A DNA stretch of 64,000 nucleotides from Streptomyces sp. NBC_01298 (GTDB lineage Bacteria; Actinomycetota; Actinomycetes; Streptomycetales; Streptomycetaceae), in assembly GCF_035978755.1 (NCBI RefSeq), contig NZ_CP108414.1, positions 5,952,001 through 6,016,000 on the forward strand, given 5' to 3'. The notes beneath the pieces were generated by a model. The model had not been told where the DNA came from. It saw nothing but the letters and a program-made list of their open reading frames with translations, and did no database searches. A program made the translations under genes and the position numbers. Below, one piece after another: positions 3,610 through 20,549 of the stretch; position 1 is the first letter of the stretch; the number at the start of each line of letters is the position of its first letter.

Positions 3610-4608
3610 CTACCGTACGGGCATCAGTGCTCCGGCGGTGCGGGCCGCCAGCAGGGCCACCCGGTCCGCGGCCCGCACGGCCCCGGCCGCGTCGACGCCC
3701 GTGAACGCCAGCCGCACCGAACCTGCTTGCCCGTCGAACGCCGAACCGGGGCCCACTCTGAGCTCCTGCTCGGCGAACTCGGCCATGACGCGGTCCTCCT
3801 CGGCGCCGTGCCAGGACAGCGACAGCGACATGCCGCCTCCGGCGAACTCCCAGCCCAGCAGCTCACCGAGCCGGTCCGTGAAGGCACCCCGCGCCTCCAG
3901 CGTCGGCTCGATGCAGGACCGGTGCAGCGACGCGAGAGCGGGCCGGTCCAGGAAGCCCGCCCAGGCCCGCTGCCAGGTGGTGGCGGGACCGCTGCCGCGC
4001 AGCGCCGGCAGTACGGTGACCCCGTCCGGCACGGTGGCCCAGCCGAGCCGGCTGCCGCCGCCGCACAGTTTCGCCAGCGAGGTCACGCTCCAGCAGCCGG
4101 GCGGCGGCTCCACCGAGGGCGCGTACCACCGGTAGACCTGATTGACGACCACCTGGTGACCCGCGCGGGCGAGTTCCGCCAGGGCGGCGCGCCCGGCGGT
4201 GTCGAGCGAGTGCCCGTCGGGGTTGCGGTACGGGCTGGTCACCCAGACCGTGACCGGCTCCGGGCAGCTTTGTGCGGCGCCGGGCAGTTCCTCCCAGGGC
4301 AGGGCGCTCACGGCGGCCGTCCCCGCCAGGACCAGCCCGATGTCGGCGAAGCCCGGCCGTTCCACCAGCGCCGTGCGGGTGAGCCCCGCCCAGCTTCCGG
4401 CGAACTGGCGCACCCCGCCGGTGACCACCGTCCGCCCCGGTGGCGCGCCGAACAGGTCGGCCAGCCGTTCCAGCAGCTCCGGGTCGCCCTCGGCCGGCGG
4501 AGTGGCCCAGCAGTCCGCCCGGTCCAGCGCCCGGTCGTGCGCCGCGCCGAAGCGGCGCACGAGGGCGTGCGGCCAGGGCCGCGGCGGGCCGGTGAGATCC
4601 AGCGTCAT
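3610..4608 (-). CDS. PLP-dependent aminotransferase-fold protein
   Basis: A 332-residue protein of the class I/II aminotransferase fold. SVTSLAKLCGGGSRLGWA around residue 180 matches the signature that holds the PLP lysine and the following Arg/Gly motif. TSPYRNPDG matches the conserved NP region before the PLP aspartate. It is shorter than typical class I enzymes (about 390) and lacks part of the N-terminal arm. It is the last gene of the leftward operon, its ATG overlapping the upstream TGA. It probably supplies or consumes an amino group, or acts as a lyase or decarboxylase. The reaction cannot be told from sequence. Confidence 0.7.
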   Translation of the reverse strand: MTLDLTGPPRPWPHALVRRFGAAHDRALDRADCWATPPAEGDPELLERLADLFGAPPGRTVVTGGVRQFAGSWAGLTRTALVERPGFADIGLVLAGTAAVSALPWEELPGAAQSCPEPVTVWVTSPYRNPDGHSLDTAGRAALAELARAGHQVVVNQVYRWYAPSVEPPPGCWSVTSLAKLCGGGSRLGWATVPDGVTVLPALRGSGPATTWQRAWAGFLDRPALASLHRSCIEPTLEARGAFTDRLGELLGWEFAGGGMSLSLSWHGAEEDRVMAEFAEQELRVGPGSAFDGQAGSVRLAFTGVDAAGAVRAADRVALLAARTAGALMPVR

Positions 4609-5975
4609 CCCCGGGCCGCGGCGACCGCGCGGGCACCGGCGATCAGCTCGGGAGCCAGCAGGTAGTCGACCGTGGCCAGGAAGGTCTCGTCCTCGATCCG
4701 GACGTACTGCCCGGACGGGGTGTCGAGCCGCTGGATGCCCCGGTCCGCCCTGAGCGCCTTGGGACGGCCGGGCGTGGCGGGGTGCATCGGGACCGGCTCG
4801 CCCACGAGCAGGTCCTCGGCGATGTCCACCGGCACCAGCCGTACGCAGGTCCAGGAGTTCAGTTCGAACGGCTCGGCGGCCTCCTGGCCGGTCCGCGGGG
4901 CCACGGCCAGCGACAGCCTGTCGCGGTAGTAGCCGTACGCGTCGGCCGCCACCCGCACCGCGGGGACGAGTCCGCCGCGCCGCCACCCGGCCTCGAACGC
5001 GTGGACCGTGGTGCCCAGGCAACGCCGCTGCCAGTGCGGCTCGCGCGGGTCCGGCGCCGGCTCCAGGGTGCGTACGCGGGGCAGGGCGCGCAGCCGTTCC
5101 TCCTGCGCCGCGGTGAGCGCGGTGCCGGCCCGCAGCTCGTCCACGATGAAGCTGAGGAAGCCCTCCAGGCCGGCCTGCCGCAGGCGCGCCGTGAAGCGCG
5201 GACCATCGAATTCCGGCAGCGAGAGCGCCATCAGCAGGTCGTTGGTGTCCTTGGCCGTCACGAAGTAGTCGCCCGCGGCGTTGTTGACGACGCAGCCGAG
5301 GTTCTCCTCGGGCGCCAGCACGTGAACTCCGGGGGCGCCGGCGGGCAGCTGCGCGGTGAGCCCGAGCCTGCTGCTGTGCCGCACCGAGTAGTCGCCGAAG
5401 TGGATGTCCACATTCAGCAGGTGATCGGCGCCGTCCGGCACGACCAGCGGGAACTGCCCGTACACCAGGCCCTCGCTCGGGTCGTACTTGATCCAGGGCA
5501 GTTCGCCCTTCAGGTACTGGTAGCCGAACCCGGTGCGCAGTGCCCGTACCAGGACGCTCGCCTCGGCCCGGGTCCGTACGAAGATGTCCAGGTCGCTGAA
5601 GTCGCGGATGCCGGGATCCTGGTAGGTCGCGCGGGCGCCGAGTCCCTTGATGGCGAAGAACTGCAGCCCCGCCTCGCGGGCGATCCCGTCCAGCATCTCC
5701 AGGTTGGCGTCGAGCACCTTGTGCATCCGCTGGAGGCTGTCGGTCTTGGGACGCATCGCCTCCATGCACTGCCGCACGGAGGGCCGGTCCTCGTGCGCGG
5801 CGAGCCGGGACATCACCAGCGTGCGCATCCGCAGGGTCTCCAGGAACCGGGCCGCTTCCCGGGAGCCGAGCGAGGCGATGGCGGTCAGCGACCGCTCGAT
5901 GGTGAACAGCGGCTGGATGCTGGAGAGGCTGCGCAGCGCGGCCAGGTCGTCAAGGATCAGGGATTCAGTGGCCAT
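4605..5975 (-). CDS. Nucleotidyltransferase-family protein (NTP_transf_5 type)
   Basis: A 456-residue protein whose N-terminal half resembles the NTP_transf_5 family: FFAIKGLGARATYQDPG followed by RDFSDLDIFV near residues 110-130 is the family's KG...DxD pattern, where the DxD aspartates would bind metal-nucleotide. Proteins of this family occur in natural-product and capsule loci, but few have known reactions. The C-terminal half (about 300-456) has no motif I recognise. It overlaps the CYTH gene upstream by 11 bases and the aminotransferase gene downstream by 4, so the three are translationally coupled. Confidence 0.65.
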   Translation of the reverse strand: MATESLILDDLAALRSLSSIQPLFTIERSLTAIASLGSREAARFLETLRMRTLVMSRLAAHEDRPSVRQCMEAMRPKTDSLQRMHKVLDANLEMLDGIAREAGLQFFAIKGLGARATYQDPGIRDFSDLDIFVRTRAEASVLVRALRTGFGYQYLKGELPWIKYDPSEGLVYGQFPLVVPDGADHLLNVDIHFGDYSVRHSSRLGLTAQLPAGAPGVHVLAPEENLGCVVNNAAGDYFVTAKDTNDLLMALSLPEFDGPRFTARLRQAGLEGFLSFIVDELRAGTALTAAQEERLRALPRVRTLEPAPDPREPHWQRRCLGTTVHAFEAGWRRGGLVPAVRVAADAYGYYRDRLSLAVAPRTGQEAAEPFELNSWTCVRLVPVDIAEDLLVGEPVPMHPATPGRPKALRADRGIQRLDTPSGQYVRIEDETFLATVDYLLAPELIAGARAVAAARG

Positions 5976-6465
5976 GGTGGTCTTTCCTCGTGCTCTCTTG
6001 CCGTGCGGGGATTCCGTGCGTTGCCAGCGACTGGTTGAGATAGCCGACCAGGCCGGTGGCCTCCTCGCCGACCCAGGCGGGAGGGGTGTACTGCCGCGCC
6101 TCCTCGGCGGAGGCGAACTCGACCTCGGCGGTGCACAGCCCGTGCAGGGCGCCGTGGTAGACGTCGACGACGAGGGTGTGCGGTCCGTCGGCCATCCGGT
6201 AACGGTCCTTCTCGACCCGCGCCGCCACCGTCGTGGGCCACAGCGCGTCGAAGTCCGCCGCCTCGATCTCGCGTTCCACTTCCACCCGGGTCAGACCGAG
6301 ACCGCTCTTGACGGTCAGGGTGTGGCGGCCGTCGGCCCGGCGCACGCGGACCTCCGTGCCTTCCCCGGTGATCGCGACGTATCCCTGCCGGACGTTTTGC
6401 GCCCTCGCGCCGGCGGGTGGGACGAAGCCGTGGACGAGGAACTTGCGCTCGATCTCATAGGTCAT
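5965..6465 (-). CDS. CYTH-domain triphosphate-tunnel protein
   Basis: A 166-residue single-domain CYTH protein. The EIERKFLV signature at residues 4-11 is diagnostic. Alternating charged residues follow in strands (RQGYVAI, EVRVRRADG, LTVKSG, EVEREI, EKDRYRM) that line the tunnel. Family members hydrolyse or bind triphosphorylated substrates (inorganic triphosphate, ThTP, ATP to cAMP). In this operon, beside a nucleotidyltransferase, a HAD phosphatase and two NDK-fold proteins, it more likely works on a nucleotide-linked intermediate or on released pyro- or triphosphate. Start ATG overlaps the HAD stop (ATGA). Confidence 0.85.
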   Translation of the reverse strand: MTYEIERKFLVHGFVPPAGARAQNVRQGYVAITGEGTEVRVRRADGRHTLTVKSGLGLTRVEVEREIEAADFDALWPTTVAARVEKDRYRMADGPHTLVVDVYHGALHGLCTAEVEFASAEEARQYTPPAWVGEEATGLVGYLNQSLATHGIPARQESTRKDHHGH

Positions 6466-7846: not shown

Positions 7847-8544
7847 GCCTGTCCCTGTCCCTTCCCTGCGCCCACCACGTGATGGCGCTCCAGGTCTTCA
7901 AGTCGCTGTTCCTGCGCGGCGATCCATTTCCGCGCCTTCCCCTGGATCTTGGGGATCATTTCCGGTGCCTCCAGCAACCGCGGCAGCAGCTCCGGCTCCG
8001 TGCTCAGCGCGCGCAGCATCAGATTCACCGTGATGCCGTGGCCCGGCCGCTTGACCACCTCTATGGGGTCGCCCGGCGACACCTCGCCCTCGGTGAGGAC
8101 CCGGAGGTAGGCGCCGGGGGCACCGTTCGCGGTGAACCGTTCGACCAGGTCCGGGACGTCCCAGAAGCCCGCGAAGACCCGGCAGGGCTTGCGGGGGCGG
8201 ATCACCTCGAAGACCGCTCCGCCGATGCGCCAGCGCTCACCGATCTCGGCATGGGTGACGTCGATGCCGACGGTGGAGAAGTTCTCGCCGAAGTTGCCGG
8301 GCGCCACGGTGCGGCCGAGCTCCCGCTCCCAGAAGGCGGCGTCCTCGCGCGCGAACGCGTACACGGCCTTGTCCGGGCCGCCGTGCGCCTTCGTGTTGAC
8401 GATCAGATCACCCTCGAGCCCGGTGAACCGCGCGGTGACCGGGCCGGGTACGGGCCGTTTGTCGATCCCGCTGCGCCCGTTGGAGGTCCACGGCCCAGTG
8501 CGTTCGACACCGAGGTTCACCGTAAGCAGCTGGGCCGCCGTCAC
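7843..8544 (-). CDS. MOSC-domain protein
   Basis: A 233-residue MOSC protein with a core of about 170 residues. NFGENFSTVGID and the RPRKPCRVFAGFW segment match the family, whose conserved cysteine binds a sulfur or molybdenum-cofactor ligand. Known members act in molybdenum-cofactor sulfuration or N-hydroxylated compound reduction (mARC, YiiM). An N-reductive role would complement the AurF-type N-oxygenase encoded at the head of this operon, but that is inference. Start GTG at 8544 overlaps the upstream TGA (GTGA). A C-terminal helix extends beyond the usual domain. Confidence 0.75.
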   Translation of the reverse strand: MTAAQLLTVNLGVERTGPWTSNGRSGIDKRPVPGPVTARFTGLEGDLIVNTKAHGGPDKAVYAFAREDAAFWERELGRTVAPGNFGENFSTVGIDVTHAEIGERWRIGGAVFEVIRPRKPCRVFAGFWDVPDLVERFTANGAPGAYLRVLTEGEVSPGDPIEVVKRPGHGITVNLMLRALSTEPELLPRLLEAPEMIPKIQGKARKWIAAQEQRLEDLERHHVVGAGKGQGQA

Positions 8545-9488
8545 CGCGGGCCACCCCAGTCGGCGGTGACGTTCGGGACGCTGGTGCTCACGCCGGGGAG
8601 GTTCATGTCCTCCAGCAGGTGGGTGATCACCGTCAGCAGGTCCCAGCGGTTGGGGTGCTCGTACGAGAGCTCGCGGGTGGCCGCCATGACCTCCGCCAGC
8701 GCGATCTCCTCGCCCGCGGCCCGGCGTGCGGCGAGCTCGCCGGGGGCGCCCGGCACGTCGAGGAGCCGCTTCCAGCTGAGCCCGAAGTCGAAGTCGTGTA
8801 CCGGGTGCGTGCGTTCGAGCGTGTCGAATGCGGCGAGCACTTCGGGGAGGGCGTCGTGGTCGCCGAGGATGCGCTCGCGCATCAGCGCACGGCGGTCGTC
8901 GTCGCACAGGACGGCGATCTCCCGGAAGACATCGATGGTCTCGTCCGAGCAGTGCATGAAGTTGAACAGGCCGTTGACCACGCCCAGCTGGTGGCGCAGG
9001 TGCTCGGGATGGCGCTGGTCAGGGTCCGCCGGGCCCTTGAGTGAGTTGAGGCGGATGGCGGCGGGCATCCGGCCGGGCTGCCACTCGGTGTCCCTCAGGA
9101 CCAGGCAGACCGTGTCGGCGGTGGGCAGGATCAGGTCCATCGCCTCGACCCGGTCACGGGTGGCGATGTTGAAGTGGTGACGCCAGACCTCCCGGATGGT
9201 CTGCCGGCCGTGCCGGAAGACCACCACGTCGACCGGCCGGAATCCGGCGCCGGCCAGGGCCTGGACCGCGGGGCGCAGCCGGCGGCCCGCGGTGGCTTCG
9301 GCCTTGAGCATGCACAGCGTGATGCCGAGCATCCGCGGCAGGTCCCCGCCGAAGGTCCAGCAGCTCTCCCGGAAGTACTGCTCCAGGGAGTAGATCCGCG
9401 CCTTCTCCGGAGACCAGGTGACCTGGCCGAGGATCTCCTGGTCGACTTCGCTGAGCCGTTCCTGGTCTGGCATTGCATCGGACAGCAC
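8541..9488 (-). CDS. Nucleoside-diphosphate-kinase-fold protein 1
   Basis: A 315-residue protein (GTG start at 9488; a later ATG at 9473 is possible) containing an NDK-like core. CMLKAEA matches the NDK strand that ends in the nucleotide-binding lysine. Further on, LRHQLGVVNGLFNFMHCSDETIDVFREIAV aligns with the NDK region RGDF...GRNxxHGSDS...EISLF, with the phosphate-accepting histidine and its Asn retained. About 90 residues before and 100 after the core are extra and are shared with the paralogue at 10540. This is twice the length of a normal NDK (about 140). It probably transfers a phosphoryl group, perhaps onto a pathway substrate. Confidence 0.65.
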   Translation of the reverse strand: MLSDAMPDQERLSEVDQEILGQVTWSPEKARIYSLEQYFRESCWTFGGDLPRMLGITLCMLKAEATAGRRLRPAVQALAGAGFRPVDVVVFRHGRQTIREVWRHHFNIATRDRVEAMDLILPTADTVCLVLRDTEWQPGRMPAAIRLNSLKGPADPDQRHPEHLRHQLGVVNGLFNFMHCSDETIDVFREIAVLCDDDRRALMRERILGDHDALPEVLAAFDTLERTHPVHDFDFGLSWKRLLDVPGAPGELAARRAAGEEIALAEVMAATRELSYEHPNRWDLLTVITHLLEDMNLPGVSTSVPNVTADWGGPR

Positions 9489-9505
9489 GTGTGCTTTCCC
9501 TCTCT

Positions 9506-10543
9506 TCAGGACACCGGTGCCGCGCTGGACGGCAATCCGTGGGCAGCGGGCCGGCCATCGAGGGCCTCGGCGAGGAAGTCGACTTCCGCCCGGCGCTGGT
9601 AGCCGTTGGGCTCGGCGTGCCCGGCGAACGGCCATACACCGATCTGTTTCGGTCCGGCGTAGTGGTGGTAGGTCGTGGCGACGGAGGATGGGGAACAGAC
9701 CTGGTCCCGCAGCGCGAGGGAGAACAGCGCCGGGCAGCTGGCGCGTTCGGCCAGGGGGATCCCGTCGAAGTAGGCCAGCGTCTCCAGGGCCCGTCCGGCG
9801 TGCTGCGGATGGAACTGGCAGAACCGCAGCAACTCACGGTAGGGCTGACGGTCCGGGAGCCGGTCGGGGCCGGTCACATCGCACAGGAACGGGGACTCCA
9901 CCAGGGCCGCGGCCACCTCTTCGTGCAGGGCCGCCGCGGCCAGGGCCAGCAGGCCGCCCTGGCTGCATCCGGACACGGCGACGCGGCGCGGATCCACCGC
10001 AGGGTGCGCGAGGGCGGTGTCCACCGCGCGCACGGCGTCGACGTAGGCGTCCCGGTAGTAGTACTGGGCAGGGTCCAGCAGGCCGCGGGTGACGAAGCCG
10101 GGTATGTGGGGGTGAGTCTGGCCCACCGGATCGGGGGTGTCCCCCGGACGCAGGTTGGCGCCGCCCTGGCCACGAGTGTCGACGACCAGGGTGGCCCGGC
10201 CGACCGCGGGCCACAGCAGCCAGTCCAACGGCGCTCCGCGTCCCTCGCCGTAGCCGAGGAACTGCACCACGCACGAGACGGGCGGCTGATCGGCGGCCGC
10301 GGCGCCGGCGGTGGCCGCCGGATGCCCGGGCACGATCAGCCAGGCCGCGATGCGGTGGCCGCGTGAGCCCGCGAAGGACACGTCGTGCACGGTCGCGGCC
10401 GTCAGCGCGGTGGGCACCGGCGTGAACACCGGGTCCAGCGGGTGCACCGCCTCGGCCAGGGTGTCCTGCCAGAAGGCGTCGAAATCGGCGGGGGTCCGGT
10501 GCGAGGACCGGAGTCCGGCGAGTGCGGTGGGAAGCCCGTTCAC
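9506..10543 (-). CDS. Acetyl-xylan-esterase-family alpha/beta hydrolase
   Basis: A 345-residue alpha/beta hydrolase of the AXE1 / cephalosporin-C deacetylase family. The nucleophile elbow is VSGCSQGG near residue 190, the acid lies in the SLALRDQVCSP segment, and the catalytic histidine is in PFAGHAEPNG. An early QFLGYGEGRG motif forms the oxyanion region. Family members remove acetyl or other small acyl groups, so a deacylation of a protected intermediate is plausible. It lies between two NDK-fold paralogues and its GTG start overlaps the stop of the upstream one. No signal peptide is seen, so it acts in the cytoplasm. Confidence 0.75.
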   Translation of the reverse strand: MNGLPTALAGLRSSHRTPADFDAFWQDTLAEAVHPLDPVFTPVPTALTAATVHDVSFAGSRGHRIAAWLIVPGHPAATAGAAAADQPPVSCVVQFLGYGEGRGAPLDWLLWPAVGRATLVVDTRGQGGANLRPGDTPDPVGQTHPHIPGFVTRGLLDPAQYYYRDAYVDAVRAVDTALAHPAVDPRRVAVSGCSQGGLLALAAAALHEEVAAALVESPFLCDVTGPDRLPDRQPYRELLRFCQFHPQHAGRALETLAYFDGIPLAERASCPALFSLALRDQVCSPSSVATTYHHYAGPKQIGVWPFAGHAEPNGYQRRAEVDFLAEALDGRPAAHGLPSSAAPVS

Positions 10544-11508
10544 GCAGTGACCGCCGGGGCGTTCTGCCAGGAGGCGAGCAGCACGTTGGGGAAGATGCGG
10601 CCGATGCCCGGTTCGTTGAAGCGCAGGGTGTTCGTCAGCAGGCTGAGCAGGTCCCAGTGCGCACCGGGGCCGTCCGCGCCCGCGCGGATCGCCGCGGCGA
10701 TCAGGTGTACGGGGATGGGCCGGCCCGCGGCGGCCCGTACCATCTCGCCCGCGGGTCCCGGGGAAGCGGCCAGCCGTCGCAGGCTGTTGTCCAGGTCGAG
10801 GTCGTGCGCGGGAACCTCGGCCTCCAGGGCCTCGAAGGCCGCGAGGGCCTCGGGCACCGCGTCGAACGCGGCCCGGACCCTCGTCCGCAGCAGCTGGCGG
10901 CGCTCCTCGTCGCAGACGATGGCGATCTCTCGCATCACGTCGATCGGCTCGTCGGAGGTGTGGGTGAAGTTGAACAGGCCGTTGACGGCGCCCAGTCGGC
11001 TGCGCAGGTGTCCGGGAAGGCGCTGCGCCGGGTCGGACGGGCCCTTGAGCGCGGTCAGCCGGACGGAGGCGGGGACGCTGTCCGGGGTCCACCGTTCGTC
11101 GCGCAGGACCAGCATCACGGAATCGCAGGTGCCGAGGACCAGGTCCATCGCGTCGATCCGCTCGCGGCTGGCGAAGTTCAGCTGGAAGCGCCAGGTCTCG
11201 CGGACGGTGAGCCGGTCGTGCCGGAACCGGACCACGTCGACGGGACGAAAGCCGTTGTCGCTCAGGGCCTCCAGGGCCTGGTGGTAGCGCCGGCCGGCCG
11301 CGGCCTCGGGCTTGAGCACGCACAGGGTGGTGCGCAGGACGTCGTCGAGGTCGTTGCCGAAGAGCCAACTGCTCTCGCGGAAGTAGTTGTCCACCGCGTA
11401 CAGCCGCTCCTTGGCCGCCGAGCGCGTCACCGTCCGCACCAGGGCGGGTGGGATGTCGTGGAGGATTTCAGAGGTGGCTGCCGTACCGAGGCTGCTGTCT
11501 GTGGTCAC
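10540..11508 (-). CDS. Nucleoside-diphosphate-kinase-fold protein 2
   Basis: A 322-residue paralogue of the protein at 8541, alignable along its whole length. LCVLKPEAA keeps the nucleotide-binding lysine strand and is closer to the classical VKPDG. LRSRLGAVNGLFNFTHTSDEPIDVMREIAI keeps the active-site Asn and His. The N-terminal extension (ERLYAVDNYFRESSWLFG) and C-terminal extension (HDLDLDNSLRRL and onward) match the paralogue. The two may form a hetero-oligomer or act on successive phosphates. Start GTG at 11508, 35 bases after the diiron oxygenase gene. Confidence 0.65.
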   Translation of the reverse strand: MTTDSSLGTAATSEILHDIPPALVRTVTRSAAKERLYAVDNYFRESSWLFGNDLDDVLRTTLCVLKPEAAAGRRYHQALEALSDNGFRPVDVVRFRHDRLTVRETWRFQLNFASRERIDAMDLVLGTCDSVMLVLRDERWTPDSVPASVRLTALKGPSDPAQRLPGHLRSRLGAVNGLFNFTHTSDEPIDVMREIAIVCDEERRQLLRTRVRAAFDAVPEALAAFEALEAEVPAHDLDLDNSLRRLAASPGPAGEMVRAAAGRPIPVHLIAAAIRAGADGPGAHWDLLSLLTNTLRFNEPGIGRIFPNVLLASWQNAPAVTA

Positions 11509-11543: not shown

Positions 11544-12524
11544 TCACAGGGGGAGCCCGTTGGTCAGTCCTGCCGCGTGGAACGCGTCGAGGGTCCCCGG
11601 GTCGTCCAGGGCGCCGATCTCGGCGAAGTAGCGGACGGTGGTGCGGCCGGCTTCGGCGATGGAGGCCCGGACGGCCAGGGGCGGGTACGACTCCGCCAGC
11701 ACGGCTTCCGTCTGCGAGGTGCTGAGGCCGGCCGCGAGCAGGGAGCGGGCCACTGCCGGGTAGTCCGGCTCGAGGAAGATCGTGACCAGCTCGGGCAGCC
11801 AGGGCCCGAGCAGCCGCCGCTGCCGCGGGCTCAGGGAGTGCCAGAAGTACTTGAGCACGCTGCGGAAGTAGGCGTGGTGCTTGCCCTCGTCCTCCGCGTG
11901 GTCGCGGACCAGGTCGCGTACGGCCGCCGGCAGTCTGCGGTCCTGCGGGAGATCGGCGAGGATCGCCGAGATCAGCGTCTCGCTGACGATGCAGAAGGCG
12001 AGGGACTGAGCACCGCGCAGCTCGGGTTCCATGAGCGCGCGCAGCTCCTCCAGCCTCCGCAGGAACGTGGGTTCCACCGTGCGGAGGGGGATTCCGGTTT
12101 CCGCCGCGACCTGGGTCATCAGGTCGTGGGAGAACTGTGCGTGCCACGCCTCGTCCGTCGAGATCTTGAAGGCGTCCTCGCGCATGGCGGGGCTCAGGTT
12201 CAGATCGTCCCGGCCCCGGCTGAGGTCCACGGTCACGGGAAGTACCGCGACGGATTCGAGTTCGGTCGTGAAGTGCAGGTAGTGGAAGAGACGTTCCACG
12301 AGCACGCGGTGCACAGTACCGGGCGCGGCCTCGCGCACGATCGGGTGGGACACCGCGGGAACCAGCTCGGGCGGAAAGTACACCTCGTATTCGGCCGACT
12401 GCGAAAGCATTCGGCGCGGCTTGATGCGCACACTCGCACGCTGGTCCCAATTGCCGAATTTGCTCTGGTATTCGTCAGCTACCACAGACTCCGGGCGCGC
12501 AAAGATTGACCGTTTTGCGGACAT
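11544..12524 (-). CDS. AurF-type non-haem diiron N-oxygenase
   Basis: A 326-residue protein of the AurF / p-aminobenzoate N-oxygenase family. All metal-ligand segments are visible: a Glu in HFTTELES, ExxH in TDEAWHAQF, a Glu in IVSETLISA, and HxxxExxH in RDHAEDEGKHHAYF. Such enzymes oxidise an amine to hydroxylamine, nitroso or nitro, or perform related oxygenations. It is the first gene of the leftward operon. I chose the ATG at 12524, preceded by AGGG and by a good promoter at 12533-12561. A TTG at 12557 would overlap that promoter. The Bfd-like protein encoded across the divergent promoter could feed it electrons (inference). Confidence 0.8.
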   Translation of the reverse strand: MSAKRSIFARPESVVADEYQSKFGNWDQRASVRIKPRRMLSQSAEYEVYFPPELVPAVSHPIVREAAPGTVHRVLVERLFHYLHFTTELESVAVLPVTVDLSRGRDDLNLSPAMREDAFKISTDEAWHAQFSHDLMTQVAAETGIPLRTVEPTFLRRLEELRALMEPELRGAQSLAFCIVSETLISAILADLPQDRRLPAAVRDLVRDHAEDEGKHHAYFRSVLKYFWHSLSPRQRRLLGPWLPELVTIFLEPDYPAVARSLLAAGLSTSQTEAVLAESYPPLAVRASIAEAGRTTVRYFAEIGALDDPGTLDAFHAAGLTNGLPL

Positions 12525-12951: not shown

Positions 12952-12964
12952 AAGGAGGAGGTGA
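12952..12964 (+). promoter_or_regulatory. Very strong ribosome binding site of the peptide gene
   Basis: AAGGAGGAGGTGA contains two overlapping full Shine-Dalgarno matches, five bases before the ATG at 12970. It is the best ribosome binding site seen in the biosynthetic region. It fixes the start of the 22-codon gene and predicts high expression. Confidence 0.8.
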
Positions 12965-12969
12965 AAGTC

Positions 12970-13038
12970 ATGAAGAAGTACATCAAGCCGTCCGCCAAGA
13001 AGGTGGGCACGGGCACCATCCTTTCGAACGGCGTCTGA
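12970..13038 (+). CDS. 22-residue lasso-leader-like precursor or carrier peptide
   Basis: This 22-codon gene has a near-perfect ribosome binding site and is followed ten bases later by a strong hairpin. The peptide is basic (KK at 2-3, KK at 10-11). Tyr4, Pro7, Ala9, Gly13 and Ser19 fall at offsets 0, 3, 5, 9 and 15, exactly the spacing of the lasso-leader motif YxxPxLxxxGxxxxxT recognised by PqqD-like proteins, with Ala for Leu and Ser for Thr. In a lasso precursor the core begins two residues after that last position. Here that is Gly21, and only Val22 follows before the stop. The gene heads an operon encoding an Asn-synthetase-like enzyme and a PqqD-like protein. I infer a leader acting as carrier or scaffold. 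No homologue is known to me. Confidence 0.75.
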   Translation: MKKYIKPSAKKVGTGTILSNGV

Positions 13039-13047
13039 TGAGCCGTT

Positions 13048-13080
13048 GTGCGTCACGCCCGGGATCCGGGCGTGACGCAC
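13048..13080 (+). terminator. Hairpin between peptide gene and Asn-synthetase gene
   Basis: A perfect 15-base stem (13048-13062 with 13066-13080) closes a 3-base loop, ten bases after the peptide stop codon. No U-tract follows, but such stems terminate or stabilise transcripts in Streptomyces. It would make the peptide mRNA more abundant than the enzyme mRNA, as is common for ribosomal-peptide precursors. Confidence 0.7.
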
Positions 13081-13164
13081 ATTTCGGTACTCAATTCAGT
13101 TCATTCGGGACTCCTTATGGGGAGCCCATGTTTGTGTTTTTTCTGTGATTACGGGGTGTGGAAA

Positions 13165-15381
13165 ATGTGCGGCATCGCTGGTGTGGCCCGGATTGACGGG
13201 AACGCCCTGCCCGAGGAAGCCGGCGGCCTTCTGGAGGCATTCGCCCGCACACTCGCCCACCGAGGCCCCGACGACCGCCGGCTGCTGTGCGACGGGCCCG
13301 TGGGGATGGCCTTCAACAGGCTCTCGCTGGTGAACCCCGAGAACGGCGCCCAGCCCCTGGTCAGCGCCGACGGCAACGTCGTCCTGATCGCCAACGGCGA
13401 GGTCTACAACCACCGGGAGCTCGCCGCGGGACTGCCCTCCGGCACCCGCCTGAGCACCGGCTCCGACTGCGAAGTCCTGCTCTACCTCTACCAGCGCGAC
13501 GGGCTGCGCTTCCTCGACCGGGTGAACGGCATGTTCGCCTTCGTCCTGTGGGACCGCGCACGCAACATCCTGCTGATGGCCCGGGACCGCTTCGGGATCA
13601 AGCCGCTCTACTACCACCGGGACAACGAGCGCATCGTCTTCGGCTCGGAGATCAAGGCGCTGTTCGCGGACGGCGCCACCCCGCGTCGCATCGACTGGAC
13701 CCGCGCGCTCAGCGAGTACGACATGAACGCCACGCCGGCGTTCGTCCACGGCCGCGTCACCACCTGGTTCGAAGACATCCAGCTCGTCGCGCCCGGCACG
13801 ATCCTGCAGATCCGGCTCCAGGACGGCGCGACGACCGAGCACCGCTACTGGGAACTGCCCGGTCCCGACGGCGATTCCGACATGACGGACGAGGACTACG
13901 TCGAGACCTTCCGCGACCTGCTCGCCGCCTCCGTCGCCGACTGCGCCACCGCCGATACCGACCTCGGCCTCTTCCTCAGCGGCGGCATCGACTCGGCCGC
14001 CGTCGCGGCACTGGCCCCGGGCAACGGCTTGCAGACCTTCACCGCGCTGACGCCCGGCACGGTCCTCAACGGTGACGCGCACGGCGGTCACCGGACCGCC
14101 GAACTGCTCGGCCTGCGCAACCACCAGGTGCTCATCGGCTCCGACCGCGTGCCCAGCCCGCAGGAATGGCGCGACCTGGTGTGGCTGGCGGAGACGCCGA
14201 TGACCGGCCCCGAGGTCTTCTACAAGTTCGAGATGCACCGCTTCGCCCGGCAGAACTTCCCCGAGATCAAGGGCATGCTGCTCGGCGCCGCCGCCGACGA
14301 GATCAATGGCGGCTACATACCCAACTTCGCCGGTGAGGGCGGAGACTGGACCGACTTCGAGTCCAACCTCCGTGATCTGCACCGGCGCCAGGCGCTGGAG
14401 CGCAACCCGAAACTCGGCCACTGGTGGGAGCACGAGGGCGTTCCGCTGCTCAATGACGCGGCGATCGACCCCGCGTCCCCGTACGCGGGCGACCACTACG
14501 CCGGATACTTCGCCTGGCAGTACCGCACCCTCGAGCAGTACAACGTCTGGCACGAGGACCGAACTGCCGCGGGCAACGGGGTCGAGGCCCGAGTGCCGTT
14601 CCTCGACCACCGCCTCGTCGAGCTCGTCGCCCGGATTCCCGCCCACCGCCGCTCCGCACTGCTGTGGGACAAGCGGATCGTGCGCGACGCGATGAAGGGC
14701 ATCCTCCCCGAGGAGATCCGCACCCGCCCCAAGGGCTACTTCTTCTATGGCGAGGGCGCCCGCCACACCAACCGCGCCCTCACCACCATGCTCGCGCAGG
14801 ACGGTGCCGCCCTGCTGGAGCAAGCGCTCTCCAGCGACAACGCCCGCCGCTACCTCAACGCCGACGGCCTGCGCACCGCGCTCGACCGGCTCACCCACAG
14901 TCCGAGCACCGGAAGCATCGAACTGCTCCTGCGGATCGTCAACCTCGGCCTGCTGGAAGGCATGACGGCGGAGCTGCCGTCACCCCCGTCGCAGGCGGCC
15001 GCTCGCCCCAAGCCGGTGGAACTGATCGTCGACGACTGGGAGCGCAGCGCCCCGCAGATCATCGCCCAGGTGGTCGCGGAGCCGGATCTCGACCAGGAGA
15101 CGGTGTACACCCTCGCCGACGGCGTACTGCTCGCCACGGTGCCGGCCGAGCCGGACAGCTGGTTCCTCGTCGTCGACGGCAGCTTCGAATACGAGATCTC
15201 GGCAGTCGACGACGCGGGTTGGCTCGCTCTCCTGCGGACCCTCGACGGAACCCTGACCCTGGCCCAGGTGCTGGAAAAGACGGACGGCCGCCTCGACGAC
15301 GTCGCCGAACTGTTCCAAGAGGCCATGGCCGTCGGCGTGATCACCGCGAAGCCCGGGACCGAGGAGCCGGTGCAGCGATGA
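13165..15381 (+). CDS. Glutamine-dependent Asn-synthetase-like amidotransferase with extra C-terminal domain
   Basis: A 738-residue AsnB-family protein. Residues 1-210 are a glutaminase domain with the nucleophile Cys2 (MCGIAG), AFNRLSL and NGEVYNH. Residues 240-600 are the synthetase domain with the pyrophosphate loop FLSGGIDSAA near 268-277 and the ARVPFLD segment. A family member would adenylate a carboxylate and amidate it with glutamine-derived ammonia. About 125 further residues (612-738) end in a segment resembling a small winged helix (LLRTLDGTLTLAQVLEKT...FQEAMAVGVI), perhaps a peptide-binding domain. Lasso cyclases share the synthetase fold but do not act by glutamine-dependent amidation. 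The likely substrate is the 22-aa peptide, its C-terminal carboxylate or a product carboxylate. Start: ATG at 13165, because Cys2 must be N-terminal. Confidence 0.85.
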   Translation: MCGIAGVARIDGNALPEEAGGLLEAFARTLAHRGPDDRRLLCDGPVGMAFNRLSLVNPENGAQPLVSADGNVVLIANGEVYNHRELAAGLPSGTRLSTGSDCEVLLYLYQRDGLRFLDRVNGMFAFVLWDRARNILLMARDRFGIKPLYYHRDNERIVFGSEIKALFADGATPRRIDWTRALSEYDMNATPAFVHGRVTTWFEDIQLVAPGTILQIRLQDGATTEHRYWELPGPDGDSDMTDEDYVETFRDLLAASVADCATADTDLGLFLSGGIDSAAVAALAPGNGLQTFTALTPGTVLNGDAHGGHRTAELLGLRNHQVLIGSDRVPSPQEWRDLVWLAETPMTGPEVFYKFEMHRFARQNFPEIKGMLLGAAADEINGGYIPNFAGEGGDWTDFESNLRDLHRRQALERNPKLGHWWEHEGVPLLNDAAIDPASPYAGDHYAGYFAWQYRTLEQYNVWHEDRTAAGNGVEARVPFLDHRLVELVARIPAHRRSALLWDKRIVRDAMKGILPEEIRTRPKGYFFYGEGARHTNRALTTMLAQDGAALLEQALSSDNARRYLNADGLRTALDRLTHSPSTGSIELLLRIVNLGLLEGMTAELPSPPSQAAARPKPVELIVDDWERSAPQIIAQVVAEPDLDQETVYTLADGVLLATVPAEPDSWFLVVDGSFEYEISAVDDAGWLALLRTLDGTLTLAQVLEKTDGRLDDVAELFQEAMAVGVITAKPGTEEPVQR

Positions 15382-16169
15382 GTACGGCGCCCCCGGCCTC
15401 CGCGGAGGCCGGCCGCACGGGTTTCCTGGCCCGCGCCTTCGACCGTACGGCCTGGCCTCCGCGAGGCGTCCGGCTGCTGTCGGCGGCCGTGATGGCGGTC
15501 TTCTCCGCGGCCCTCTGGTGGCAGGGCGGTTCCTGGCGCGCGGCCGCCGTGCTGGTCGGCGTGGACGCGCTGGCCGGACTGCTGCCCTGGCGGATGCCCC
15601 GGACCCTGCGCACCGGAGCGGCCTACTGGAGCGAGAACGCGATCGCCCTCGCCGTGCCGATCGCCTTCATCGCGTACTCCGCGGGCACCGGGGCGGACTG
15701 GCTCACGCAGGGCACCTCCTGGTGGTGGTACGCGGTGGCGCTCGCCTTGGACGCGGGGCTGCTGCTGGCCGGAGGCATGGACTTCCGCCTGCTGTTCTCC
15801 GGGGACCTGGCCTTCCTGATGGGGCCGAGCACACCGCTCCAGGCCAGGACCAGAGCGACCACGGGGACCCTGGCGCCCTTCGGAGAGGAGGCGCTGTACC
15901 GGTCGGTGGCCGTCACCGTGGCGGGGCCCGCCGGCCTCGTGACCTCGCTGCTGGGCGCCGCCGCCTTCATCGCCCGCCATCACGTCGGGGACAGCCGGTG
16001 GCGCAAGGCCCCGCGCGTCCTGGCGGTGGAGCTGCTGGCCGCGCTGTCCCTGCTGGGCCTGGTGGCCCTGTCGGGCTCCGTCTATCCGGCGCTGTTGGCG
16101 CACTTGGTCAACAACGCACCGTCCGTACTGCTCGAGCTTCAGCGCTCAGAGAAGGAGAGCCATGGCTGA
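15378..16169 (+). CDS. CPBP (CAAX/Abi-type) membrane protease
   Basis: A 263-residue membrane protein with about six hydrophobic segments. The CPBP motifs are in order: EEALYR near 170-175 (EExxxR), FIARHHV near 197 (FxxxH) and HLVNN near 241 (HxxxN). These intramembrane metalloproteases process peptides or give bacteriocin immunity. In this operon it is the only evident protease, so it could release or trim the 22-aa peptide conjugate in place of the missing lasso leader protease. Its ATG overlaps the stop of the upstream gene (ATGA) and its end overlaps the next gene by 8 bases. Confidence 0.75.
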   Translation: MSTAPPASAEAGRTGFLARAFDRTAWPPRGVRLLSAAVMAVFSAALWWQGGSWRAAAVLVGVDALAGLLPWRMPRTLRTGAAYWSENAIALAVPIAFIAYSAGTGADWLTQGTSWWWYAVALALDAGLLLAGGMDFRLLFSGDLAFLMGPSTPLQARTRATTGTLAPFGEEALYRSVAVTVAGPAGLVTSLLGAAAFIARHHVGDSRWRKAPRVLAVELLAALSLLGLVALSGSVYPALLAHLVNNAPSVLLELQRSEKESHG

Positions 16170-16938
16170 CAACTCGTCGTCCTGCCTGCCGGAGTTGCGC
16201 GTCCAGGGCCTTCTCCCGGACGCGCCGCTCTGCATCTTTCAGGCGGGTTCCATCGTGCGCGGCTGGGGCAACCCCACCAGCGACATCGATCTCTTCGTCA
16301 TCACGGACGGGGTGTGGGGCGGGAGCCTGACCGGCGCCCCCATTCCGCTGGGCGCGGATGTCTTCCGGTCTTTCGAGACCTATGCGCAAGGAACTCGATG
16401 CGATGTCCGGTTCCTGACGGACGCCCAGGTCGACACCGTTTTGGCGAAGGTGTCGCACGAGGCGTTCGACAGTGCCGTGGGCGAGGGAATTCAGCTCGAC
16501 CGCCAGGAGACGGTCCTGCTGGAATGGCTGCGTCATGGTCAGGCCCTCGAATCCGAGGAGTGGCTGAACCGGCGCGCGGACGAACTCAAGGCGTCGGCCT
16601 TCGGTTCCATGCTGGTCCAGCGCGGCCTCAACTACGCGGATTCCCGTGTCGAGGACGCCGTGGGGCAGATGTCGATCGGCGACCTGGAGAGCGCGGTGCT
16701 TTCGGCCCGGGTGGCCCTGGAATACGCCGTGGACGCGCTGCTCGCCTCGTACAACGAGTACGGGCAGAACGCCAAGTGGCGGGCCAGGCGGTTCCGTGCC
16801 GTGGAGCAGTCGGTGCTCTCGTTCGATGAGTACTGGGCGCTGGAGACCATGCGGACCTTCGATCCGGCCGACCCTGCGGCGTGGGTCAACGAAGTCCTCC
16901 CCGTGTGCCGAAAGATTTCGATGGAAGTGATTCTCTGA
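16162..16938 (+). CDS. MNT-type nucleotidyltransferase with helical C-terminus
   Basis: A 258-residue protein. Gly29-Ser30 followed by Asp41-x-Asp43 (SDIDLFV) is the nucleotidyltransferase-beta signature of minimal nucleotidyltransferases. The C-terminal 130 residues are helical (ESAVLSARVALEYAVDALLASYNEYG) and resemble a HEPN or substrate-binding bundle, as in kanamycin nucleotidyltransferase-type enzymes. It would transfer a nucleotide to a small-molecule hydroxyl, an amine or a peptide. Nucleotidyltransferases are known tailoring partners in some lasso clusters. Role here: activation or self-protection, by inference. It overlaps the PqqD gene by one base. Confidence 0.7.
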   Translation: MADNSSSCLPELRVQGLLPDAPLCIFQAGSIVRGWGNPTSDIDLFVITDGVWGGSLTGAPIPLGADVFRSFETYAQGTRCDVRFLTDAQVDTVLAKVSHEAFDSAVGEGIQLDRQETVLLEWLRHGQALESEEWLNRRADELKASAFGSMLVQRGLNYADSRVEDAVGQMSIGDLESAVLSARVALEYAVDALLASYNEYGQNAKWRARRFRAVEQSVLSFDEYWALETMRTFDPADPAAWVNEVLPVCRKISMEVIL

Positions 16939-17219
16939 TGGCAGAGCAGCCGGTCCTCGCCCTCGACCAAGTCCCCTCGTACCGGCCCGATGTCCGGGTC
17001 CGCAATGTACGAGGCGGCTACCTGGTCGCAGTGGCCAACAATGCGTTCGAACTGTCCGAAACTGCGAGCTTCATCTGGAAGCAGATCAACGGGCAAAATT
17101 CGATCGCCGATATCGGACGGCTACTGGCCACCGAATACGACATCGATACGGATACCGCAACCGCGGACACCAAGGAAATTCTTGAATATCTCGCGACGAC
17201 CGGTTCCGTCGTCTTCTGA
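16938..17219 (+). CDS. Stand-alone PqqD-like RiPP recognition protein
   Basis: A 93-residue PqqD-family protein: three strands then a winged helix. RNVRGGYLVAVANNAFELSETASFIWKQINGQNSIADI and the C-terminal TKEILEYLATTGSVVF are typical. Such RiPP recognition elements bind the leader of a precursor peptide and present it to enzymes. In lasso systems the same domain (B1) binds the YxxP motif that the 22-aa peptide carries. Its presence beside that peptide and the Asn-synthetase-like enzyme is the main support for a peptide-guided pathway. Confidence 0.85.
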   Translation: MAEQPVLALDQVPSYRPDVRVRNVRGGYLVAVANNAFELSETASFIWKQINGQNSIADIGRLLATEYDIDTDTATADTKEILEYLATTGSVVF

Positions 17220-17234
17220 CGTGATGGGAAAGAG

Positions 17235-18503
17235 ATGAACACATCCATGCTCACAGCGAACTCGTGGCTGACGCCCGAGGGTACGCGATCCGCCTCCGTG
17301 AAGTGGAGCGAAGGCGCCCTGTCCATTTCCGATCCGCTGGGAGGCGGCATCTCGGCCCCCGGCGGCTATTTCGCGCCGAGCCTGCCGGTCGAGGTCCACT
17401 GTCACGGGCTGGGTGACGTCGACTTCTCCGACTTCAGCCGCATGGATCTGAAGGAACTCAACGAGGCCGCGCGGACGGAGGGGATCATCTGTATTCCCAC
17501 GCTGTACCTCCGCCAGGAGCGCCTCGACGACTTCGTCGGATTCATGGGTGAATTCTCCCGGATGCGCGCGGACGGGGAACTCCCGTACGTCGGAGCGATG
17601 GCCCTGGAGGGCCCGCTGGTCGCCAGCTTCGGCGGTACCCCGGCCAGCTCCGTATGGGCTCCGTCGCGCGGGGAGTGGGAGAAGCTGGCGTCCTGCGGGC
17701 CGCTCGGACTCGTCTACCTCATGGTCTCGCCCGACGCGCTGACGGCCGGCTCGTACCTGGCCCCGGCGCTGCCGATCGGCTACCCCGACCTGGAATGGAT
17801 CGTCACCACCCTGGTGGAGCGCGGCGTCCGTCCGGCCCTCGGCCACTTCACCCGCGAGGACCCCCAGCTGGGAGCCGACTGCGTGGAGGCCGCGATCAGC
17901 GCGGCCGAGGCGGCGGACTTCCCCGGAAGGGGCGTCCGGGTGATCACGGACCACCTCTTCAACGAGATGCCGCTGCTGATCAAGCACGCGTTCCGCACCA
18001 CGCGGGCCAAGGCCGAGCGCGAACGGATCATCGCCTCCTACGACCTCCCGTCCTGGAACCTGGCGGACCTGCACGAGCAGGCCGGTCCCGTACCGGCGGC
18101 GATCATCCGCGCCGCGCACGCCGGCCGCATCACCGCCTGCCTCAACTTCGACGGTGAGCACGTGGACTTCGCCATCGCACAGCGCGCGGTGGAGCTGGCC
18201 GGGCCCTCGAACATGATGCTGATGACGGACCGCAGCGACACCCCTGACCTCGGGGGCCAGCACCTGCACCGCGACTCCGAGAACTCCCTGTGGTACCAGG
18301 GCGACGGCGTCGTGGCGGCCGGCACGCAGCCGATCGACAAGCAGATCGCCAACGTGCGAGGCCTCGGCGTGCCGGAATCCGACATCTGGCACCTCATCTC
18401 CTTCACCGCCTACCGCACCTTCTTCCCGGAGGTCGACCTGCTCGGCCGCCGGCCGGAGCGCGGCTGCTTCGTGGTCGACGGCAAGCGGATCGCCGTCGGC
18501 TGA
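17235..18503 (+). CDS. NagA-like amidohydrolase
   Basis: A 422-residue amidohydrolase-superfamily protein closest in motif order to N-acetylglucosamine-6-phosphate deacetylase: HCHG at 55-58, LEGP near 124, GHF near 202, TDHLFNEM near 237-244, DGEH, MLMTDRSD and a late FPEVDLLGRRPERGCFVV corresponding to the NP.. turn. NagA cuts an amide bond using one or two metal ions. The first metal motif (HxH) and the family Asp are present. In this operon it may hydrolyse an amide in a peptide-bound or sugar-containing intermediate. A role in aminosugar catabolism is unlikely here because no sugar-phosphate genes are nearby. Confidence 0.7.
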   Translation: MNTSMLTANSWLTPEGTRSASVKWSEGALSISDPLGGGISAPGGYFAPSLPVEVHCHGLGDVDFSDFSRMDLKELNEAARTEGIICIPTLYLRQERLDDFVGFMGEFSRMRADGELPYVGAMALEGPLVASFGGTPASSVWAPSRGEWEKLASCGPLGLVYLMVSPDALTAGSYLAPALPIGYPDLEWIVTTLVERGVRPALGHFTREDPQLGADCVEAAISAAEAADFPGRGVRVITDHLFNEMPLLIKHAFRTTRAKAERERIIASYDLPSWNLADLHEQAGPVPAAIIRAAHAGRITACLNFDGEHVDFAIAQRAVELAGPSNMMLMTDRSDTPDLGGQHLHRDSENSLWYQGDGVVAAGTQPIDKQIANVRGLGVPESDIWHLISFTAYRTFFPEVDLLGRRPERGCFVVDGKRIAVG

Positions 18504-19277: not shown

Positions 19278-20549
19278 ATGATGATGTCCTCGCCGCAACC
19301 CGCCCCGCACGACCGATCGGTTTTCTGGCGGCTGTGGACGGCCCACAGCACCAGCGCCTTCGGTACGGCCGTCACGACCGTCGCGATGCCGCTCGTGGCC
19401 GTCCTCGAACTGGACGCCACCACCTTCGAGACCAGCGTGGTGGCGGCGGCGACCATGTGCGCGTGGCTGCTGTTCGGGCTGCCGTCCGGGGTGATCGTGG
19501 ACCGCCTGCCGCTGCGTCCGGTGCTGGTCGTCGCCGACCTGGTCCGGGCCGCCGCGCTGGTTTCCGTACCGGTGGCCGTCTACCTGGACTCGCTCACCCT
19601 GGCCCAGCTGGTGATCGTCTCCTTCGTCATCAGCGTGGCGAGCGTGATCTTCGAAGTCGGATACTCGACATACCTGCCCGCTGTGGTCACCAAGGACCGG
19701 CTGACCGCCAGCAACAGCCTGCTGCAGGGCAGCGAGTCGGTCTCCCAGGTGGCGGGCCCGGCGCTGGGCGGCGGCCTGGTGCAGGCCCTCGGTGCCGCGT
19801 ACAGCCTGATCGCGGACGTGGTGAGCTACCTCGTCTCGGCGGCCCTGCTGATGACCGTGCCCCCGCCGCGCAGCGGGACGCCGAAGAAGCCCAAGCGCAA
19901 CATGGCCGCCGAGATCCGCGAGGGCGTCCAGTTCGTCCGGCACCATCCGGTGATCCGGCCGCTCGTCTTCGCCGGCACCGGCTTCAACTTCGCCACCGGG
20001 GCCATCGAAGCGCTCACCGCCGTCTTCCTGGTCCGCACGGTCGAGGTCGACTCCTACGCCATCGGCTTCCTGATCGCCGGCCTGGGCCTCGGCGGAGTCA
20101 TCGGCGCGGCGATCACGACCCCCCTGGTCAAGCGACTGGGCACCACCCGGGCCGCGCTCCTCACTCTGGTCATCGCCCCGATCTCCGCCCTGATGATGCC
20201 GCTGACCTTCCCCGGCGTGGGGCTCGCCCTCTTCTTGCTGGGGAACATGGGCTGGGGCGCCTGCACGGTCACCTTCGCGATCATCGGCCGCACCTACCGT
20301 CAGACGGCCGTCTCCCCGGACCTCATCCCGCGCGTGATGGCGACCGTCCGGTTCGTCTCCTGGGGTGTCATGCCCGTCGGCGCCCTCCTCGCGGGAGCCC
20401 TCGGCGTAGCGTTCGGCAACCGCACCTCCCTGCTGATCCTCTGCCTGTGCACCCTCCTGATCCCGGTCCCGGTGTTCCTTTCGCCATTGCGCAAGACCCG
20501 TGAACTGCTCGAGGTGGACGTCGCCCCCTCCGTCCAAGCCCCGCGGTGA
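19278..20549 (+). CDS. MFS exporter (EntS/MFS_3 type)
   Basis: A 423-residue major-facilitator protein with about 12 hydrophobic segments, the loop GLPSGVIVDRLPLRPV matching motif A between TM2 and TM3, and a long cytoplasmic loop near residue 200 (PKKPKRNMAAEIREG). The subfamily exports siderophores and antibiotics. It lies six bases after the methyltransferase-like gene and four before an ATP-grasp gene. It probably exports the product or gives self-resistance. A second, related MFS gene lies at 23731. Confidence 0.8.
   Translation: MMMSSPQPAPHDRSVFWRLWTAHSTSAFGTAVTTVAMPLVAVLELDATTFETSVVAAATMCAWLLFGLPSGVIVDRLPLRPVLVVADLVRAAALVSVPVAVYLDSLTLAQLVIVSFVISVASVIFEVGYSTYLPAVVTKDRLTASNSLLQGSESVSQVAGPALGGGLVQALGAAYSLIADVVSYLVSAALLMTVPPPRSGTPKKPKRNMAAEIREGVQFVRHHPVIRPLVFAGTGFNFATGAIEALTAVFLVRTVEVDSYAIGFLIAGLGLGGVIGAAITTPLVKRLGTTRAALLTLVIAPISALMMPLTFPGVGLALFLLGNMGWGACTVTFAIIGRTYRQTAVSPDLIPRVMATVRFVSWGVMPVGALLAGALGVAFGNRTSLLILCLCTLLIPVPVFLSPLRKTRELLEVDVAPSVQAPR

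Follow-up and report, generated by a model that had tools for sequence, protein, structure and literature searches.

In trichostatin biosynthesis, the hydroxamate is formed by the AurF-like TsnB7 together with the AsnB-like TsnB9, and ActI/ActJ of actinonin and MatA/MatC of matlystatin were proposed there as analogous pairs (PMC5719088, in part). As substrates of SaHAT, a free carboxylic acid, ATP, and glutamyl hydroxamate have been described (PMC13418202, in part), and deletion of the AurF-like LitN abolished an N-hydroxylation that probably takes place on an amide (PMC10616846, in part). Here, a pair of the same description, an AsnB-type ligase and an AurF-type di-iron oxygenase, was analyzed beside a gene for a 22-residue peptide in a stretch of 64,000 nucleotides (the window) from the 9.7-Mb genome of Streptomyces sp. 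NBC_01298 (contig NZ_CP108414.1, positions 5,952,001 to 6,016,000). Whereas the trichostatin, actinonin, and matlystatin modules act on polyketide or acyl-CoA-type acids, the ligase of this locus has a C-terminal domain modeled as a RiPP recognition element (RRE; RiPP, ribosomally synthesized and post-translationally modified peptide) and is accompanied by the ribosomal peptide, a stand-alone PqqD protein, and a nucleotidyltransferase (Table 1). In the open-access literature searched, with most subscription papers outside the search, no description of a peptide/AsnB/AurF/PqqD system was found, nor did leader-guided processing of a ribosomal peptide appear there together with an AsnB/AurF hydroxamate module.

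Action on the C-terminal carboxylate of a ribosomal peptide, as proposed here, is known from the asparagine synthetase-like (AS-like) enzymes PesC of the nitrilobacillins and TsrC and ScdTA of the thiopeptides, which amidate or nitrilate RiPP C-termini, and about 300 uncharacterized AS-like candidates were counted in RiPP contexts (PMC13060819, in part); the present family may be among them. PesC, however, is accompanied by MNIO and HExxH enzymes, unlike the cassette described here, and the likeness is one of description. In the pearlins ammosamide and 3-thiaglutamate, C-terminal chemistry likewise takes place on a short ribosomal scaffold (PMC12424672, in part), but no peptide-aminoacyl-tRNA ligase (PEARL, LanB-like) was present among the window proteins scanned, the other genes and loci not having been scanned for one. 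Lasso peptide systems share the YxxP leader motif, a discrete PqqD-like RRE (B1), and an AsnB-superfamily enzyme with this locus, in which, by contrast, the core is too short for a ring and the glutaminase motifs of AsnB are intact.

The open reading frame (ORF) of the peptide is a real, conserved gene. Its position and translation, residues Y4, P7, A9, G13, and S19, the near-perfect ribosome-binding site, and the hairpin directly behind it were all found as the original prediction had them (Table 1). One scan with the AsnB protein yielded 56 loci, of which 40 with an alignment over nearly the whole protein were kept and 16 partial, distant matches were left out. A motif search detected peptide homologues in 37 of these loci, the ORF starting approximately 135–195 bp upstream of AsnB in most and lying 1.4–6.3 kb from AsnB in L022, L037, and L038. 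The remaining three loci hold divergent short peptides, two of them picked by eye: MQPTKTEEVVDVEALFAVVA in L047 (20 residues, read by eye) and MPKRTKRPVKPVSQSSVLRHLG in L054 (22 residues, downstream of AsnB on the opposite strand, near 14544); that of L029 has 47 residues, its additional length lying at the N-terminal end and its C-terminal spacing being unchanged. Moreover, a 22-residue homologue was present in all three Streptomyces plasmids found via AsnB, and a PqqD search of 297 genomes of the family gave nine matches outside the window, with the peptide in five of these regions (L070, L072, L074, L075, and L076) and not found in four (L069, L071, L073, and L077); three of the five were repeats of L015, L026, and L013 and hence not new. 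The family spans Streptomyces, Actinoplanes, Micromonospora, Lentzea, Actinophytocola, and other genera. Strong hairpins 3′ of the peptide stop were found in 34 of 38 loci, the window among them (z below −2 against mononucleotide shuffles; set without L029, L035, L038, L047, and L054). As expected of a gene too short for gene callers, the peptide was absent from the gene tables of all three annotated plasmid copies, which are incomplete by their own description.

The 37 motif-found loci, the window, and the PqqD-recruited L072 and L076 supplied 45 peptide copies from 40 loci. Exactly 22 residues were counted in 44 copies and 20 in one; no copy had a longer core, and the L029 peptide is longer at its N-terminus only. 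Longer conserved cores at homologous loci, or absence of the peptide from related clusters, had been named in advance as evidence against the original prediction, and neither was seen. Three tandem, nearly identical copies stand ahead of AsnB in L021 (9646–9913) and L043 (9606–9895). Two copies in L038 (8416–8609), a metagenome bin, have C-terminal halves off the family pattern (AASSCRSHRA and SACSRSLHSA) and are possibly frameshifted or divergent.

Across the 40 distinct 22-mers, Y4 and P7 were invariant, K6 was kept in 39, and V12 in 37. Position 9 was A, V, T, or K and never L, position 13 was G in just four peptides, and position 19 was T in one and S in three. Of what had been taken for a complete lasso-type leader, YxxP alone is thus a family feature, G13 and S19 of the window peptide not being shared by the family. 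The ratio of nonsynonymous to synonymous differences (pN/pS), computed on 36 non-independent pairs each at least 68% identical, was 0.36 for residues 2–12, 0.32 for residues 13–18, and 1.20 for residues 19–22; residues 2–18 therefore look constrained and residues 19–22 do not, as in an RRE-guided RiPP precursor with a conserved leader and a variable C-terminal core. The predicted two-residue core is better described as a variable tail of four residues. The last residue was A in 11 peptides, V in 9, T in 6, R in 5, K and S in 3 each, and H, I, and C in 1 each. Fixed length, a constrained leader, and a free tail together agree with a need for the C-terminus to enter an active site, and since the length is fixed while the tail varies, modification of the C-terminus is the best reading of the peptide.

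The AsnB predicted beside the peptide, with its C-terminal extension, was found, and in the structure model the extension itself carries an RRE-like fold. C2, N77-G78-E79, and D101-C102-E103 were invariant in 29 aligned sequences, and the window AsnB, which scores above the general asparagine-synthase cut-off, has both the glutaminase and the synthetase motifs demanded by an AsnB/AurF hydroxamate module. Among the matches listed, its nearest relatives belong to Streptomyces and Kitasatospora; relatives at E up to 1e-150 numbered 419, and the 120 listed bear plain asparagine-synthase-type names or, in many cases, none. In the alignment of the oxygenase, the iron-ligand positions of AurF were all kept. 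This gene was present in 35 of the 40 loci; for L018 (another contig, E 1e-75), L019, and L049 the genome gave a strong match, which brings the count to 38 of 40 genomes, whereas the L044 match was weak, and none was found in the L035 genome. The nucleotidyltransferase was present in 36 loci, and genome searches for L019, L039, and L044 raised this to 39 of 40 genomes; the L054 genome gave no match. The anticipated PqqD-like partner also accompanies the peptide across loci: tblastn found it in 27 of 40, and profile searches added L019, L025, L026, L032, L034, L036, L039, L044, L045, and L058, those of L019 and L039 being seen also via L079 and L083 of their genomes. No PqqD was found in the L054 genome or on L035, a 3.5-kb contig beyond which no search was made.

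A search of the 297 genomes with a profile of the cassette oxygenase led to L103, where the AsnB is a full-length, 1379-bit match to 7YLZ, a ‘hydroxyamidotransferase’ that is probably TsnB9 itself, and an oxygenase gene lies within 1 kb of it. The oxygenases of L103 and of the window share 39% identity, and the window AsnB is 26% identical to the 7YLZ-type enzyme. As the latter identity is just 26%, the case for a hydroxamate is built on the AsnB/oxygenase pair and not on AsnB by itself.

On balance, the peptide, with roughly 18 leader and 4 core residues, is probably the precursor in a previously unrecognized RiPP-like pathway guided by RREs, in which AsnB and the oxygenase would form a C-terminal hydroxamate, followed by nucleotidylation and export. 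We infer every chemical step, and the order of the steps, from the gene, its conservation and partners, the predicted folds, and the substitution pattern. PqqD, through YxxP, and the fused RRE-like domain of AsnB would both hold the leader, and its docking would put the C-terminal carboxylate into the synthetase site. AsnB would adenylate this carboxylate and transfer nitrogen from glutamine. For the hydroxamate there are two candidate routes: the new amide could be N-hydroxylated, as proposed for actinonin and matlystatin, or glutamyl hydroxamate could donate hydroxylamine, as it does in trichostatin biosynthesis. The ANT-like nucleotidyltransferase, brought in by PqqD, would then add a nucleotide as activation, final decoration, or self-protection, and the MFS protein would export the product. 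Two points limit this reading: relatives of the oxygenase and the nucleotidyltransferase occur also outside the cassette, and a conserved leader protease did not turn up, although only a minority of the flanking genes were run against family libraries.

The division of labor between the two leader readers can be approached through L054 and L047, whose peptides lack YxxP and which also lack a normal PqqD. L054 has a PqqD trace (E 0.009) in an N-terminal extension of its oxygenase. At the L047 locus, a divergent PqqD (E about 4e-8) forms part of a larger protein, and the same genome yields a further weak match (E 6e-10) outside the locus. All 37 loci with a normal PqqD have a Y..P peptide. As YxxP and the normal PqqD are missing together, these two cases suggest that PqqD reads YxxP for the nucleotidyltransferase, and that the AsnB domain may read the K-P-V...V-L part.

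A more specific product, a four-residue-core peptide whose C-terminal hydroxamate is nucleotidylated on the N–OH (or whose amide is nucleotidylated on nitrogen) by the PqqD-recruited enzyme, is put forward tentatively and is unlikely as it stands. Peptides or aminoacyl amides joined to a nucleotide are known from microcin C, phosmidosine, and agrocin 84; microcin C uses the ThiF-type enzyme MccB, whereas the cassette has an ANT-like nucleotidyltransferase. If formed, peptidyl-CO-NH-O-NMP or -CO-NH-NMP (NMP, nucleoside monophosphate) would represent a novel type of ribosomal peptide-nucleotide. It could mimic an aminoacyl-adenylate, the variable last residue setting the target, or it could be an activated species whose C-terminus is primed for a biological Lossen rearrangement.

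Together, these features suggest a class of peptide natural products, unrecognized so far, in which the final residue is the one modified. The family appears to have gone unread because its precursor is very short and absent from the three gene tables and its AsnB is filed as asparagine synthase. Hydroxamates are valued for their inhibition of metalloenzymes, so that a genetically encoded route to peptide hydroxamates whose last residue varies would be of direct use, and with the compact plasmid cassette of Streptomyces scopuliridis such a route can readily be tested. Plasmid locus L092 holds what may be the minimal set, consisting of the peptide, AsnB, a ‘diiron oxygenase’, an MFS protein, a ‘PqqD family protein’, a ‘nucleotidyltransferase domain-containing protein’, and a helix-turn-helix protein. 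In L092–L094 the cassette lies on large linear Streptomyces plasmids; given this location and the several transposase genes adjoining it in L092, it may move as a unit.

Instead of a precursor, the peptide could be a permanent, pearlin-like carrier, on whose C-terminus a small unit (hydroxylamine or an amino-acid hydroxamate) is built and cut off before the scaffold is reused. The lack of a listed protease gene in the compact plasmid cassette, the unconstrained tail sequence, and the precedent of the pearlin scaffolds speak for such a carrier, which we nevertheless hold to be improbable, as no PEARL-type protein was seen within the scan described above and the limited set of last residues suggests that this residue matters. 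It is even more doubtful that AsnB only amidates (or nitrilates) the C-terminus while the oxygenase and the nucleotidyltransferase act elsewhere on the molecule or on a separate substrate. The general asparagine-synthase score of the window AsnB and the precedents of PesC, TsrC, and ScdTA would allow it, but the oxygenase, in 38 of 40 genomes, is related to that of a hydroxyamidotransferase locus. With the nucleotidyltransferase in 39 of 40 genomes as well, simple amidation, which the original prediction had named as an example, is probably not the end point, while its preference for a modified C-terminus over a lasso ring was strengthened. That the peptide is no substrate but regulates the AsnB operon, as a leader peptide or attenuator, is suggested by the short distance to AsnB in most loci and the strong hairpin between them, but is very unlikely in view of the distant peptides of L022, L037, and L038, the pN/pS of about 0.3 over residues 2–18, and the RRE-like fold on AsnB with PqqD alongside.

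Regarding lasso machinery, the B2 protease (PF13471) had no match in 11 of 20 genomes tested, including that of the window; the other nine have one, counted wherever it lies relative to the cassette. Seven AsnB-like genes beside B2 matches in five carrier genomes do not start with MCG and match the cassette AsnBs only locally (about 25–42%); they were taken as lasso cyclases by position alone, and L091 looks of another type. A decayed or truncated lasso precursor was ruled out despite the shared YxxP and PqqD and the distant kinship of AsnB to lasso cyclases, since the window genome gave no B2 match, the peptide is of fixed length across genera with four variable residues and no core long enough for a macrolactam with an Asp/Glu acceptor, and the window AsnB reaches 203 bits against the NF033535 cut-off of 525.

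Table 1. Features of the peptide locus in the window
Feature	Coordinates	Strand	Basis and remarks
22-residue precursor/carrier peptide MKKYIKPSAKKVGTGTILSNGV	12970..13038	+	ORF translation; leader about 1–18, YxxP at 4–7, variable tail 19–22
Ribosome-binding site AAGGAGGAGGTGA of the peptide	12952..12964	+	Read from sequence; near-ideal, before ATG
16-bp hairpin directly 3′ of the peptide gene	13047..13081	+	−41.3 kcal/mol; z −6.7 against 200 dinucleotide shuffles
AsnB-type glutamine amidotransferase/ATP ligase, 738 aa	13165..15381	+	Family match, alignment
C-terminal AsnB extension, RRE-like fold	14992..15378	+	Structure model, model residues 29–125
CPBP-type membrane protease	15378..16169	+	Family match; accessory
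Nucleotidyltransferase, ANT(4′)/kanamycin-nucleotidyltransferase fold	16162..16938	+	Family match
Stand-alone PqqD protein (discrete RRE), probable YxxP reader	16938..17219	+	PF05402, profile searches
NagA-like amidohydrolase, accessory	17235..18503	+	Weak match; related genes in 8 of 40 loci
MFS transporter	19278..20549	+	tblastn matches in 25 of 40 loci, part of them weak
AurF-type di-iron N-oxygenase	11544..12524	−	Family match, alignment
NDK-like (nucleoside diphosphate kinase family) protein, accessory	10540..11508	−	Family scan
Second NDK-like protein, accessory	8541..9635	−	Just under the Pfam cut-off; start uncertain

The CPBP protease was taken as accessory because among the searched loci it was seen in the window, L016, and L072 only. 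Gene clustering of 41 loci gave a regulator in 13 (ArsR-type by one scanned member), thymidylate-kinase-like proteins in 11 (one member scanned), and NDK-like and NagA-like proteins in subsets. On the minus strand of the window at 4605–6465, an NTP_transf_5 protein (PF14907) adjoins a CYTH-domain protein, and with the two NDK-like proteins nearer the oxygenase this neighborhood makes an unusual cluster of nucleotide/phosphate enzymes. In L069 and L071 (about 9.2–11.0 kb), the same type of nucleotidyltransferase stands beside PqqD without AsnB, oxygenase, or peptide; its neighbors, named by eye, resemble an adenylosuccinate-lyase relative, an amidase, and a GNAT protein, and this is possibly a sister pathway. 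In L101, an oxygenase relative lies beside genes that look, by eye, like SbnA/SbnB-type and carbamoyltransferase genes.
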